A stretch of DNA of 64,000 nt. It comes from Candidatus Cryptobacteroides gallistercoris (GTDB lineage Bacteria > Bacteroidota > Bacteroidia > Bacteroidales > UBA932). The stretch spans positions 49,644 to 113,643 of the forward strand of contig JADIMJ010000065.1 in NCBI GenBank assembly GCA_017694835.1, read 5' to 3'. Position 1 is the stretch's first letter; every line of letters begins with the position of its first letter. Positions 21,600 through 48,465 of the stretch are shown here, piece after piece. The notes under the pieces were generated by a model. The model ran no database searches, was not told the origin of the DNA, and saw only the letters and a program-made list of their open reading frames with translations. A program made the position numbers and the translations under genes.

Positions 21600-22769
21600 T
21601 CAGTTGCGGGGAAAATTCTGGTTTACATAAGCCGCCCGGAGCCTCGCGTACACAGGCAGAGGCAGAAGCAGGAAAAGAAGCAGGCATATTGCCTGGAAAT
21701 ACCAGCCTGTGAAGCCGCTCCCGAATATGGTTTCCTGCACATAAATCAGATAATAATGCCTGAGTGGGAACAGGACGGACAGTCCGCGGACAGCCGGCGG
21801 CAAGGCCTCGACAGGAAATGTAAATCCGGTCAGGGACAACGCCAGAGTGCTGAAGAGTGCCGCTATGCTGAGGGCAATCCGGAGAACAGGCAGGGTTCCG
21901 GCTATGAAGAATCCCACCGCTTCACTGGCCAATATCATAAGGAATGTGGCAAGGAACATGTTCCATATGGAACCTTTCAGAGGGAATCCCGCCCAATGGT
22001 ACAGGAAGATGTCGCAGACAATTCCCATTGCCGTGAACAGGACAGTATAGACTGCCAGCTTCCCGGTCATGGCGGCTGTCATAGAGCCTCCGGATTTTTC
22101 AAGAAGATGCCTTGAAGTCCCGTATTTCAGCTCGGAACACAGGGCATATACAGTCATCAGAATCACCGTCATCTCAAGTATTCCCGGAACCAGCATGTTG
22201 GTAAGGTATACATTGTAGCTCGTTGCCGCATTGCCTATCTGGTGGGAATCAACAGCCACAGGCTGTATCCTCGCCATGGCAGCCTCATCGCCGAGCCCCA
22301 TTCCGCGGAGCACCTCCCTCTGTATTCCTCCGGAAATCATGTTGGACATCATCAGAAGGTCCTTGTAGGCAAGTGCCCCTCCCACCATATACAGGGAATT
22401 GACATAGAAAGTGAACTCCGGCTGCCTTCCGGAAAGCACATCTGCATACATCCCGTCCGGAATGAGGAAGAATGCGCAGATGCATCCTGTCTGCATCGCC
22501 TCCCTGGCCTCGGCATATGAACCGAATCCTATGGTTTTCCCGAGTTGGGTGGCGTCAATCTGCCTCACCATATTCCTCGACAGGGAAGTATTGTCAAGGT
22601 CCACCACTCCTATCGGCAGGTCCTGCGGTACTCCTTCCCTGAAAAATGTACTGAAAAAGACCATGCAGAATGTCATGACCCCGACAGAAGCCATAAGATA
22701 CACCGGACGCTGCACCATGATGCGCAGTTCCCTGCGCATCGCCGACCGGACATTTGACAGAATTTTCAT
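21600..22769 (-). CDS. ABC-2 type transporter permease
   Basis: 389 aa; RRELRIMVQRPVYLMASVGVMTFCMVFFSTFFREGVPQDLPIGVVDLDNTSLSRNMVRQIDAT. Confidence 0.92.
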   Translation of the reverse strand: MKILSNVRSAMRRELRIMVQRPVYLMASVGVMTFCMVFFSTFFREGVPQDLPIGVVDLDNTSLSRNMVRQIDATQLGKTIGFGSYAEAREAMQTGCICAFFLIPDGMYADVLSGRQPEFTFYVNSLYMVGGALAYKDLLMMSNMISGGIQREVLRGMGLGDEAAMARIQPVAVDSHQIGNAATSYNVYLTNMLVPGILEMTVILMTVYALCSELKYGTSRHLLEKSGGSMTAAMTGKLAVYTVLFTAMGIVCDIFLYHWAGFPLKGSIWNMFLATFLMILASEAVGFFIAGTLPVLRIALSIAALFSTLALSLTGFTFPVEALPPAVRGLSVLFPLRHYYLIYVQETIFGSGFTGWYFQAICLLLFLLLPLPVYARLRAAYVNQNFPRN

Positions 22770-36138: not shown

Positions 36139-36154
36139 AGTTCCACGTGGAACA
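36139..36154. promoter_or_regulatory. parS-like centromere palindrome (AGTTCCACGTGGAACA)
   Basis: Perfect GTTCCACGTGGAAC core, matching the TGTTNCACGTGNAACA ParB-site consensus at all but the first base. Confidence 0.75.
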
Positions 36155-36400: not shown

Positions 36401-38482
36401 TCAGCGACCGAAATACACAAGAAGCACTGACACATCAGCAGGAGAAACACCTGAAATCCTCGAGGCCTGGGCAATGGTTCTCGGGGAATATTTTTTCAGC
36501 TTCTGCCTGCATTCTATAGAAAGACTCTCTACTTTGTCAAAGTCAAACCCTTCCGGTATAGCCAGGTTTTCAAGGCGCATTATCTTGTCGGCAATCTTCT
36601 GTTCCCTGTCAATGTATCCTTTATATTTAATGGATATTTCACAGGATTCCAGTATTTCCCTTTTATATATTTCCGAAATCCTGCCATCCATATCAGTCTC
36701 CCCTACTTCAGACAACGGATAATCCGCATTACTCTTCAGAACAGCAAGAGCATCATCCAAAGAAGATGCTGAACATACAGGATTATTTGAAACTCCGTTT
36801 AATATATCCCTGTAACTTTTGCCGCCGGAGATTTCATCAAATGGATTATAAAAAATCTCGTCAAGACCGATTTGATGTTTTTGAAAAGTTCCACGTGGAA
36901 CAAATCCAAAAATATCATTCAATTTTACCTGCGGCCTTATGACAAGATCTGAAAATTTCTTTTTAGAGACAAGCGGGGCAGTTCCGACTGATTCCAAGTA
37001 ATCATTTATGGTATCCGGACGCAAGGATATTTCATCAAAGAAAGTATTCATCTTTGATATCGATTCATACTTTCTCATCGTATAGTCATATCTGAACTTG
37101 TCGGCAAGCCCTATTTTAAAGGAGAGAGGTGTCAGCCTGAAATCAGCATTGTCCTGCCTGAGTAGAATCCTGTACTCCGCCCTTGATGTAAACATCCTGT
37201 ATGGTTCGTCGACGCCTTTTGTTATAAGGTCATCAATTAGCACACCTATGTATGCCTGGTCACGCTTCAATACAAAAGGTTCCTGTTCATGAATCTTGAG
37301 ATGAGCGTTGATACCGGCCATCAGACCTTGCGCAGCCGCCTCTTCATATCCGGTCGTACCATTGATCTGACCGGCAAAATAAAGATTTTCGATTGACTTC
37401 AGCTCAAGGGTAGGCTTAAGCTGTGTCGGGTCAAAATAATCATATTCCACCGCATAGGCAGGTCTGAAAATCTTTGCATTTTCAAGGCCCTCTATCTTGT
37501 GCATGGCATCCAGCTGAACCTGCAGAGGAAGTGAAGACGAAAATCCCTGGAGATAGTATTCTCCGGTGCTTCTGCCTTCCGGCTCAAGGAAGAGCTGATG
37601 CGAATCCTTGTCGGCAAAAGTACGGAGCTTGTCTTCTATGCTCGGACAATACCTCGGACCGATGCCTTTGATTTTTCCGGAAAACAAAGGCGAATCCTTG
37701 AATCCGGACTTCAGGATATCATGTACCTCGGCATTTGTATGGAGAATGAAACAAGGCATCTGCGGAGTCCCGTTCTGAGCAGTCGAAAGATACGGAAGAT
37801 AAGAAAATTTTTCAGGCTCTGCATCCCCCGTCTGGACCGGGAGCCTTGATGTGTCTACAGACGAAATGTCAATTCTCGGTGGAGTACCCGTCTTCATCCT
37901 TGCTGTCCTTATGCCCATTTCAACAAGACGGGAAGTCAGACCATATGAAGACAGCTCCCCTATCCTTCCTCCCTCAAAACTCTGCTTTCCTATGAAAAGC
38001 CTGCCGTCGAGGAAAGTTCCAGCCGTCAGGATAAGTGCCTGAGATTTGAATATTGCTCCGGTAGTCGTACAAATGCCCGATATACGGGAACCATCAAAAA
38101 TAAAATCAACCGCAGTATCTTGATAAATATCTAATTTACAATTACTTTCAAGCAATTTTCTCCAATTCAGGCTGTAATGCAATTTATCACATTGCGCGCG
38201 GGGACTCCACATGGCAGGCCCCTTCGACCTGTTTAGCATGCGGAACTGGAGAGTCGAAGCATCCGTGACAATTCCGGTATATCCTCCGAGCGCATCAATC
38301 TCACGGACTATCTGCCCTTTTGCAATCCCCCCTACCGCAGGATTGCACGACATCTGCGCAAAGCGCCCCATGTCCATTGTGACAAGAAGCACAGAAGACC
38401 CCATGCGTGCGGCGGCCATTGCGGCCTCGCAGCCGGCATGTCCGCCGCCGACTACTATTATATCATAAAAGACTCCGCTCAT
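36401..38482 (-). CDS. mnmG: tRNA uridine-5-carboxymethylaminomethyl(34) synthesis enzyme MnmG (GidA)
   Basis: [88 protein letters not shown]. Confidence 0.97.
36887..36902. promoter_or_regulatory. Second parS-like palindrome, inside mnmG
   Basis: AGTTCCACGTGGAACA, identical 16-mer to 36139-36154 (19-nt identity AAAGTTCCACGTGGAACAA). Confidence 0.75.
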
Positions 38483-43897: not shown

Positions 43898-44929
43898 CTA
43901 AAACAATGAGGGGTCGGTTTCGCCGGCTCCCGGGCGGTCTATCCCAAGATGGGAATAGGCGAGTTCCGTCGCTTCCCTTCCGCGCGGCGTCCTGATTATG
44001 AACCCTTCCTTGATGAGGAACGGTTCATAGACTTCCTCAAGAGTACCCTGGTCCTCCCCCACTGCAGTCGCAATGGTATTTGCCCCGACCGGACCGCCCC
44101 TGAACTTTGTTATTATGGTCCTGAGAATCTTGTTGTCGATGGAATCGAGCCCCCTCTTGTCAATATTCAGGGCATCAAGGGCATATCTTGCTATACCTAT
44201 GTCAATGTGCCCGTTGCCCATGACCTGGGCGAAATCCCGGACCCGTCTCAACAAAGAGTTGGCGATTCTCGGGGTGCCGCGGCTCCTGAGGGCAATCTCA
44301 TATGCGGCGTCATCCTCAATCCCTATCCTGAGAATCGAGGCGCTTCTCTTTACTATATGTACAAGCGTAGGCGTGTCATAGTATTCAAGGGCGCATGTTA
44401 TTCCGAATCTGGCCCTGAGCGGCGAAGTCAGAAGCCCGCTTCTCGTAGTAGCCCCGACAAGTGTAAAAGGATTGAGGGAAATCCGCACAGACCTGGCCCC
44501 CGGCCCCTTGTCAATCATTATGTCTATGACAAAATCCTCCATTGCGGAATATAGGTACTCCTCTACCTCGGGTGCGAGCCGGTGGATCTCGTCAATGAAC
44601 AGCACGTCTCCTTCTTCAAGTGAAGTCAGCAGCCCCGCGAGGTCACCGGGCTTGTCAAGCACAGGACCGGAAGTCACTTTCATGTTTACACCGAGCTCAT
44701 TGGCTATGATATGCGCAAGAGTAGTCTTCCCGAGGCCTGGAGGGCCGTGGAAAAGCACATGGTCAAGAGGCTCCCCTCTCATCTTTGCTGCCTTGATGAA
44801 TATCCTGAGATTCGCGACGGTCTTGTCCTGGCCAGTAAAATCCTGAAGTTCCTGAGGCCTTATGATTCCGTCAAATTCCTTATCTTTGTCCGAGTTTACA
44901 TTATGGGGGTCAAAATGTCCGTTCATCAC
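43898..44929 (-). CDS. ruvB: Holliday junction branch migration DNA helicase RuvB
   Basis: [81 protein letters not shown]. Confidence 0.97.
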
Positions 44930-45024
44930 ACAGAAGCTAAATTAAAGTGCCTGGCCGGCATCATCATCATTAAAAACATACAAATATAGTCTTTTTATAT
45001 TTCTGTTTATTGTGATTATACTCG

Positions 45025-45262
45025 TGTTGAAATGTTGACAATTATTTCAGATTGTTTATTTTCAATTATTTACACTTGAGTTTTCTTGTTGATAACGGCT
45101 TTTGAAACTTTTTTGAAATTATTTCTTAATCACTTTGATTTTGATTTCAGGCAGTGTATGTAAAGATTATTTTAATTTCATAATGTATTTTTGAATTTTT
45201 ATACGATGCGTTTTCAACAGGTTTTTAACATTTGTTCCGATGTTTTCAACAGGTTGTCAACA
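45025..45262. other. Candidate oriC: AT-rich ruvB/mfd intergenic region with seven DnaA-box-like nonamers
   Basis: TGTTGAAAT 45025-45033, TGTTGACAA 45033-45041, TGTTGATAA 45087-45095, TTTTCAACA 45211-45219, TTTTTAACA 45222-45230, TTTTCAACA 45243-45251, TTGTCAACA 45254-45262; the 14-mer GTTTTCAACAGGTT occurs at 45210 and 45242. Confidence 0.5.
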
Positions 45263-45276
45263 ATATTTGCAAAAGA

Positions 45277-48200
45277 ATGAAAATATCAGAAAAAACAACG
45301 TCAGAACTTTCTGCGCGGCTGAAAAAAAATGAGGAGACATATTGTTCAGGTCTTATACTTTCAGCAAGATGGCTTGTGCTTTCCTCAGTCATGAAGTCCG
45401 GAATCCACCTTGTTGTCCTGCCAGACAGGGAGAGTGCGGAATATTGTGCGTCTGATTTCTACGGCATGATAGATGGGGACCGTGTGTTTTTTCTTCCGGA
45501 TTCCGGACGGAGTCTTGAAAGAAGCAACTACAGGTCTTCGCTGAGGGTACAGAGGACTGCTGCCATAGGGAGGCTGTCCGAGTTTTCCGGAGATGATCTT
45601 CTTGTCATCGTGTCCTATCCGCAGGCTCTTGAGGAAGGGATGCCGGATGCTTCAGAAATAGGAGGAGCGGTGCTGAAGCTCCGTACGGGAGACGAGTGCA
45701 GTCACGATGAAATAGCGGAGGCGCTTTTTTCAAAAGGCTTTGAACGCGTGGACTTTGTGTCTTCACCGGGACAATTTGCAGTAAGAGGCGGCATAATCGA
45801 CATATTCTCATATTCATTCAACAATCCGTACAGGATAGGATTCTTCGGCGATGAGATAGAAAGCATAAATGTATTTGACTGCAATACCCAGCTTTCTGTC
45901 AGCAAGACTGATGAAATCGAGATTTTTCCCGATTTTTCCGCCCGGGAAGAAGGAAATCTCTCATTTATCCATGACAAGCTGAAGCCCGGGAGCACAATAT
46001 GGTTTGATTCTTCGGACATGTATTGTGAAAAGGACTTTTTCAGTCATCTGCTTCCTTTCCGTCATGTCTTCATTGATACCCCTGTCTCGGGGAGGGGCAA
46101 GGATGTACTTAAGTTTGAAATCGCCCCGCAGCCTTCTTTCAACAAGAATTTTGAACTGCTCACCGCAGACATCAGGGAGAAGATTGAATCAGGATATAAG
46201 GTATATATTTTCGGGGAGAAAGAATCCCAGCTGGAGAGGCTGCGTTCCATTCTGTCACAGAACGGCGGGCTTTTGCCTGAATTCTGCCGGGGGAAGAATA
46301 TCCACAGCGGATTCATAGACCGCGAGGACCGTATATGCTGCTATTCCGACCATGAGATTTTCGACCGCTTCCACAGGGTGAGCATAAGAAGGACCGTCGA
46401 GAAGAGCGAGCAGCTCACGATAAACGACCTGACAGCTTTCAATATAGGCGACTATGTAGTGCATATAGACTACGGAATCGGTATTTTCGGCGGCCTTGTC
46501 AAGATGACCGATGACAAGGGGCGGGTGCATGAGCTCGTGAAGATATCCTACAAGGACAATGACACGGTTTTCGTGTCCGTCCATGCTCTTCACAAGATAT
46601 CAAGATACAAGTCAAAGGATTCCGAGCCTCCGAAAATCAACAAGCTGGGCTCCAGGACATGGCAGAATCTCAAGAACAGCACCAAGTCCAAGGTCAAGGA
46701 CATAGCAAAGGAGCTCATTCAGCTCTATGCCAAGAGAAAGGCTGCAAAAGGCTTTGCCTTTTCCCCTGATTCGTATATGCAGGAAGAGCTTGAGTCTTCG
46801 TTCATGTATGAGGATACGCCGGACCAGGAGAAGGCAGTAAGGGCCGTAAAGCATGACATGGAGGATGACTGCCCGATGGACAGGCTTGTGTGCGGGGATG
46901 TCGGGTTCGGAAAGACGGAAGTTGCAGTCAGGGCGGCATTCAAGGCTGTGGCTGACAGTAAGCAGGTGGCAGTGCTTGTGCCGACCACGATACTTGCGCT
47001 GCAGCATTACAATACTTTTTCGGGCAGGCTGAAGGACTTCCCGTGTTCAATAGACTATGTTAGCCGCCTGAGGACGGCAAAGGAGATATCAGGAATACAG
47101 GAAAGACTGAAGAAAGGAACCCTCGACATAGTCATAGGGACACACAAGCTCCTCGGAAAGGGATTTGAATTCAAGGACCTCGGACTCCTGATAATAGACG
47201 AGGAGCAGAAGTTCGGAGTGAGCGCCAAGGAAAAGCTCAAGCAGATGAAACTTTCGGTGGATACGCTGACTCTTACCGCAACACCTATCCCGAGGACACT
47301 GCAGTTCTCCCTTCTCGGGGCGCGTGACCTTTCCATAATAAATACTCCCCCGCCCAACAGGATACCTGTCCAGACGGAAATAATGCTTTTCGACAATGAT
47401 GAGATAAGGAGCGTAATCAATTATGAGCTGAACCGAGGCGGACAGGTATTCTTCGTCCACAACAGAGTCGAGGAACTCCAGTCGATAGCGGACATACTCC
47501 ACAGGATGATACCTGACATGAAGATATGTGTAGCCCATGGGCAGATGGAGCCGAAGGTTCTTGAAAACAAAATTCTTGACTTTATGGCTGGAGACTACGA
47601 CCTTCTTCTGTGCACTACCATCATAGAGAACGGCCTTGACATTCCGAATGCCAACACCATCATCATCAACCAGGCCCAGAACATAGGACTCAGTGACCTG
47701 CACCAGCTCAGGGGAAGGGTGGGACGGTCCAACAAGAAGGCATTCTGCTATCTGATAGTTCCTCCGATGACTTCCATGACCGATGATGCCCGCCGCAGGC
47801 TGAAGGCGATAGAGGCATTTTCGGACCTCGGAAGCGGCTTCAACATAGCCATGCAGGACCTTGACATAAGAGGAGCGGGAAATCTGCTTGGGGCAGAGCA
47901 GAGCGGCTTCATTTCAGACATGGGACTTGAGACATATCAGAAGATATTGTCAGAAGCCATGGAAGAACTCGGGATGGAGACTGGAATACAGTCGGTCTCC
48001 ACTGCCGGCGCATCTTATTCGGACTGTACCATTGACACTGACCTTGAGGTCATGATACCTGACAGCTACATAAATATATCCGCAGAAAAAATAAGGATAT
48101 ACAAGGAACTTGACTCCCTTTCCGACGAAAGGGAAATAGACAGGATGAAGCTGAAGCTTGAAGACAGGTTCGGCAAGATGCCCGAAGAAACTTCAAGGCT

Positions 48201-48465
48201 TTTCGATGTTGTCAAGACAAGGAACCTCGGACAGAAGCTTGGATTCGAGAAGATAATAATCAAGAACGGCATCATGATAGCATTCTTCATAATGAATCCT
48301 CTTTCAAAGTATTACAGGTCAAAGAAATTCGCAGACATACTTGACGCCGTGAACAGGAATCAGAAGATTTTTGAACTCAAGCAGCCGGACAACAGGCTTC
48401 GTGTCATAGTCAGGAATATCCCTTCTGTAAATGCAGCATATTCGGCTTTGAAAAAACTTGCTTGA
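45277..48465 (+). CDS. mfd: Transcription-repair coupling factor
   Basis: [99 protein letters not shown]; start at MKISEKT. Confidence 0.97.
   Translation: [1062 protein letters not shown]

Follow-up and report, generated by a model that had tools for sequence, protein, structure and literature searches.

A conserved DnaA-box array between ruvB and mfd is the probable chromosomal replication origin of Candidatus Cryptobacteroides

The landmarks of the Escherichia coli oriC are the relative orientation of its boxes R1 and R4, its neighbours gidA and mioC, and an AT-rich unwinding region lying left of its first box. The origins of Bacillus subtilis and Helicobacter pylori are bipartite and linked to dnaA, with two groups of boxes. 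In Bacteroidetes oriC is commonly found far from dnaA, and the origin of Prevotella intermedia OMA14 chromosome I was predicted using the E. coli box with one mismatch allowed (PMC4755523).

In Candidatus Cryptobacteroides (Bacteroidales) the AT-rich gap between ruvB and mfd (44930..45276, 347 bp, no strand assigned) carries an array of DnaA boxes. With a probability of roughly 95% this gap is the chromosomal oriC of the Cryptobacteroides species studied and, at the same locus, that of the genus. All coordinates refer to the window, which is the whole 64-kb stretch of DNA that was analysed. It lies on contig C41 of a draft genome (G000: 2.02 Mb, 130 contigs, 89% complete), and the nearest relatives of its mfd come from Candidatus Cryptobacteroides and other Bacteroidales MAGs. 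An origin at this place had been suggested in a preliminary description of the DNA, and that interpretation is supported by the position of the GC-skew minimum, the conserved nonamers and the nearby parS sites. As in E. coli, the left boxes read TGTxGATAA and the right boxes TTxTCxACA, which is the relative orientation of R1 and R4. The two loci differ in the base at box position 6 and in their neighbours, which here are ruvB and mfd; gidA is some 7 kb off. Two box groups are also present in B. subtilis and H. pylori, but the Cryptobacteroides array is not at dnaA, and both of its groups share a single intergenic gap that no gene interrupts. Like the P. intermedia OMA14 chromosome I oriC, the array combines several DnaA boxes with a GC-skew transition away from dnaA; unlike it, the box is TTWTCAACA, the layout is phased and conserved, and the locus is ruvB/mfd (PMC4755523). 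No description of this origin was found among the papers searched.

The left neighbour of the gap, ruvB (43898..44929, minus strand), has a GTG start at 44929, and the right neighbour, mfd (45277..48465, plus strand), starts with the ATG at 45277; both were identified with NCBIfam and Pfam. The GC content of the gap is 26.8% (73% AT), and the lowest-GC 250 bp of the window begin within it, at 44965. The gap holds five exact TTDTCAACA nonamers and two one-base variants. On the minus strand these are the variant box ATTTCAACA (45025..45033), then TTGTCAACA (45033..45041) at a distance of 8 bp, and TTATCAACA (45087..45095) 54 bp further on. The latter two match TTNTCAACA exactly, and a reverse pair at the 8-bp distance is found in 25 cases among relatives. 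On the plus strand there are three exact TTNTCAACA matches, TTTTCAACA (45211..45219), TTTTCAACA again (45243..45251) and TTGTCAACA (45254..45262), together with the weak box TTTTTAACA (45222..45230), which is replaced by TTTTCAACA at the same site in L002 and L003. The division into reverse boxes on the left and forward boxes on the right is as originally described. The reported duplication of a 14-mer is likewise exact: GTTTTCAACAGGTT starts at 45210 and 45242, 32 bp apart, and is absent elsewhere on that strand of the window. All of the nonamer sites listed at that time are in place, but the one at 45025 reads ATTTCAACA and is not a strict TTNTCAACA match. The classical TTATNCACA box was not found in the gap; TTWTCAACA, conserved in the genus, stands in its place, and position 6 is where the array boxes depart from TTATCCACA. 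The difference marks a variant and is compatible with oriC, since the box sequence differs among lineages.

The probability that an AT-rich gap has simply accumulated T-rich nonamers by chance is negligible. A composition of 73% AT does raise the frequency of such words, but the observed number was never reached in 5000 composition-preserving shuffles: against the five TTDTCAACA words present, first-order shuffles of the gap gave a mean of 0.08 and a maximum of 2, and against six occurrences of TTNTNAACA a mean of 0.41 and a maximum of 4 (5000 shuffles in each case). Chance also leaves unexplained that position, strand and spacing are conserved over 43 gaps, and this explanation is already refuted. 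In total, TTDTCAACA occurs 8 times in the 64-kb window and 96 times in the 2.02-Mb draft genome, five of these being in the gap, and a search of the same draft genome found no second comparable cluster. The gap is the densest box cluster in every stretch scanned, with 5-6 boxes versus at most 2 elsewhere in G000, G013, G016 and G023, and with 4 boxes versus 1 elsewhere in the stretch from G033.

The comparison covered the ruvB/mfd gaps of about 30 genus members, of 13 named relatives and of the window itself; with G035 set aside this gave 43 gaps. A matrix search detected 293 boxes in them versus 5-19 (about 14) in shuffled gaps, a contrast that shows enrichment but is no independent test, since the matrix was trained on the same 43 gaps. 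Box order and spacing played no part in the training. Over the 43 gaps the boxes have the consensus TTWTCAACA, position 6 being A in 94%. In 42 of the 43 gaps the ruvB-side boxes are on the minus strand and the mfd-side boxes on the plus strand. The distance between neighbouring forward boxes is 11 bp in 33 cases and 12 bp in 34, together 67 of 85 spacings, and most of the others are near multiples of these values. Reverse boxes have recurring spacings of 8, 35 and 53-55 bp, and the distance from reverse to forward boxes is mostly 23, 45, 57 or 113-125 bp. This regular spacing is read as helical phasing that is probably under selection. Conservation of the nonamers upstream of mfd in relatives had been named as a point on which the oriC proposal could fail, and they are kept in the 43 gaps. 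The accompanying suggestion, that the nonamers are the lineage's DnaA boxes, appears strengthened because the TTWTCAACA consensus is genus-wide.

The array was absent upstream of mfd at 39 other Bacteroidales mfd loci, and an order-wide array at this position was rejected on that ground. Judging from the loci compared, an array between ruvB and mfd characterizes Cryptobacteroides and its near relatives. In G035 (L207/L109), which is listed as the same genus, ruvB is co-oriented with the divergent mfd and there is no array; this assembly may be mixed or misplaced. Two genomes each contained two mfd matches that agree in score and profile coordinates (G019 C29/C40 and G032 C5/C13), and these are probably redundant contigs.

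All genomes are drafts and the skew was computed on draft contigs, with window position 45100 as the array reference point for offsets in the own contig. The offset of the cumulative GC-skew minimum from the array is -97 bp for the own contig (113.6 kb), -100 bp for G223 (273.6 kb), -76 bp for G225 (103.6 kb) and -171 bp for G013, of which 574 kb were read. The skew of G013 forms a clean V whose two arms span 156 kb and 418 kb. The skew minimum had been proposed earlier as a check on the origin, and it falls at the array where the skew is clear, that is, on the contigs of these four genomes. G016, G033 and G023 show a weak or irregular skew with its minimum 23 to 118 kb from the gap; these genomes were counted as uninformative, not as support. 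Their arrays are intact despite the weak skew, of which recent inversions or draft misjoins could be the cause. The gene-orientation walk turns at the gap in G000 and G013. In G223 its minimum is 63 kb off, and the skew there is therefore not made by gene direction alone. The strand-corrected fourfold-site skew was noisy.

The skew minima also bear on the possibility that the boxes serve the divergent promoters of ruvB and mfd as a DnaA-controlled regulatory region, or as a datA-like DnaA reservoir, and that the origin is elsewhere. DnaA boxes in promoters are known from other bacteria, and the gap contains a Bacteroidales-type -7 element of ruvB (TAnnTTTG; here TATATTTG, 44981..44988, minus strand), a motif present in 41/41 gaps. 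A regulatory role of this kind is very unlikely, however, as it leaves unexplained why the skew minimum of four genomes lies within 76-171 bp of the array, why a pair of parS sites is close by and why none of the stretches examined holds a denser cluster.

The occurrence of parS sites near oriC is established (for example, PMC4368675 and PMC7022226). Only two parS palindromes were found in the 2.02-Mb own genome, at 8.2 and 9.0 kb from the array. Both are parS-like AGTTCCACGTGGAACA sequences with no strand assigned. One is inside gidA (36887..36902, with GTTCCACGTGGAAC at 36888-36901) and the other is downstream of it (36139..36154, with GTTCCACGTGGAAC at 36140-36153); gidA, also called mnmG, occupies 36401..38482 on the minus strand, on the ruvB side of the gap. 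A one-mismatch parS-like palindrome, GTTCCATATGGAAC at 21960-21973, is located far from the array. Among 11 genus genomes with parS hits, 10 have all of their hits on the array's contig, and the exception is G005, where they are on another contig. In the close relatives G222-G227 parS is on the array's contig in 6/6. All seven stretches read have the parS sites on the ruvB side and gidA on that same side, 7-21 kb from the array. The parS sites next door are an independent line of support for oriC at the gap.

In bacteria gidA is often found near the origin, and in several species it lies next to oriC. The origin could be in this neighbourhood but at another site, such as gidA/parS, with the array as an accessory site. 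Linkage of parS and gidA across Bacteroidales speaks for this, and parS inside or beside gidA is also common in other members of the order (L347, L349-L352, L354-L357). The skew minima are nevertheless on the array and not 8-20 kb off at gidA, and no box cluster was found at gidA in the stretches scanned. An origin at another site in the neighbourhood, such as gidA/parS, is extremely unlikely.

With the ruvB/mfd gap as oriC, we infer, by analogy with other bacteria, that DnaA binding, opening, helicase loading and ParB action take place at this locus. DnaA would bind the TTWTCAACA boxes in two oppositely oriented groups. The forward spacing of 11-12 bp is about one helical turn, so that bound DnaA would share one DNA face and form a filament. 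This filament would open the adjoining AT-rich stretch and load the helicase, and forks would depart both ways, through ruvB and through mfd. ParB would load on the two parS sites at gidA, some 8-9 kb off, and segregate the newly copied origins.

AT-rich candidate unwinding DNA adjoins the boxes in two places (from 45104 and from 44969), either of which, judging by sequence, may be the one that opens. The first candidate (45104..45203, no strand assigned) is the window's least stable 100 bp and lies between the two box groups. The second (44969..45024, no strand assigned) is AT-rich, is nearly equal to the first in stability and lies between ruvB and the first box, which corresponds to the position of unwinding DNA in the E. 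coli oriC. A box-DUE-box layout had been suggested in the preliminary description. The central location of the window's least stable 100 bp agrees with it. In gaps of relatives, however, the least stable 40 bp are on the ruvB side in 25/40 and between the box groups in 15/40, so the layout cannot be regarded as established. AT content over the 40 gaps is 82% on the ruvB side versus 70% between the groups, a bias that may stem from the ruvB -7 element located there. A conserved mfd promoter was rejected: TAnnTTTG was found in 10/41 gaps, which is not above shuffles.

The dnaA gene is on another contig (C24), as expected where oriC is remote from dnaA, the common arrangement in Bacteroidetes (PMC4755523). 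An origin at dnaA was rejected, as no box cluster was found at dnaA in the own genome or in the genus relatives; among order members only the G053 dnaA locus had 4 box-like words within 300 bp. The base-contacting positions of DnaA domain IV are 399, 423, 432-435 and 438-439 (PMC5043019). In an alignment with E. coli numbering, the own DnaA has kept R399, D433 and H434, and is changed at K432, A435 and S423. The E. coli T435 is replaced by Ala in 17 of 18 Bacteroidales DnaAs, the exception being Ser in G173, and in the same set Lys mostly takes the place of R432, and Ser or Ala mostly that of P423. T435A was rejected as an explanation specific to the genus, this change being common across Bacteroidales. 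A435 may accompany the TTWTCAACA box order-wide, which is a lead rather than a result. Three dnaA loci (L344, L345 and L346, of G033, G023 and G013, respectively) encode one extra domain IV residue just before CSLSTIG compared with G000, G016 and G222.

A tentative proposal, to which we give somewhat less than even odds, is that the box preference of Bacteroidales DnaA shifted from C to A at position 6 (TTWTCAACA) in connection with the base-contact changes in domain IV, and that the Cryptobacteroides origin settled at ruvB/mfd as a strictly one-turn-phased array. If this is true, origin finders that rely on the E. coli box could overlook the origin or put it in the wrong place. An origin at the gap would provide a precise site for a species-rich, uncultured gut genus, and growth-rate estimates from metagenome coverage would be easier to anchor. 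The gap sequence is a candidate to try in replicating vectors, and the strict box phasing over dozens of species is a natural data set on the layout of the DnaA filament.

Dense box clusters are also found elsewhere in other Bacteroidales, for example in L264 (G173), L283 (G165), L284 (G058) and L272 (G054). These were not called origins because their contigs were not seen to carry parS. A box pair in G219 (same family) was dismissed, as it is within coding DNA. The L272 cluster sits just upstream of an mraZ-like gene.
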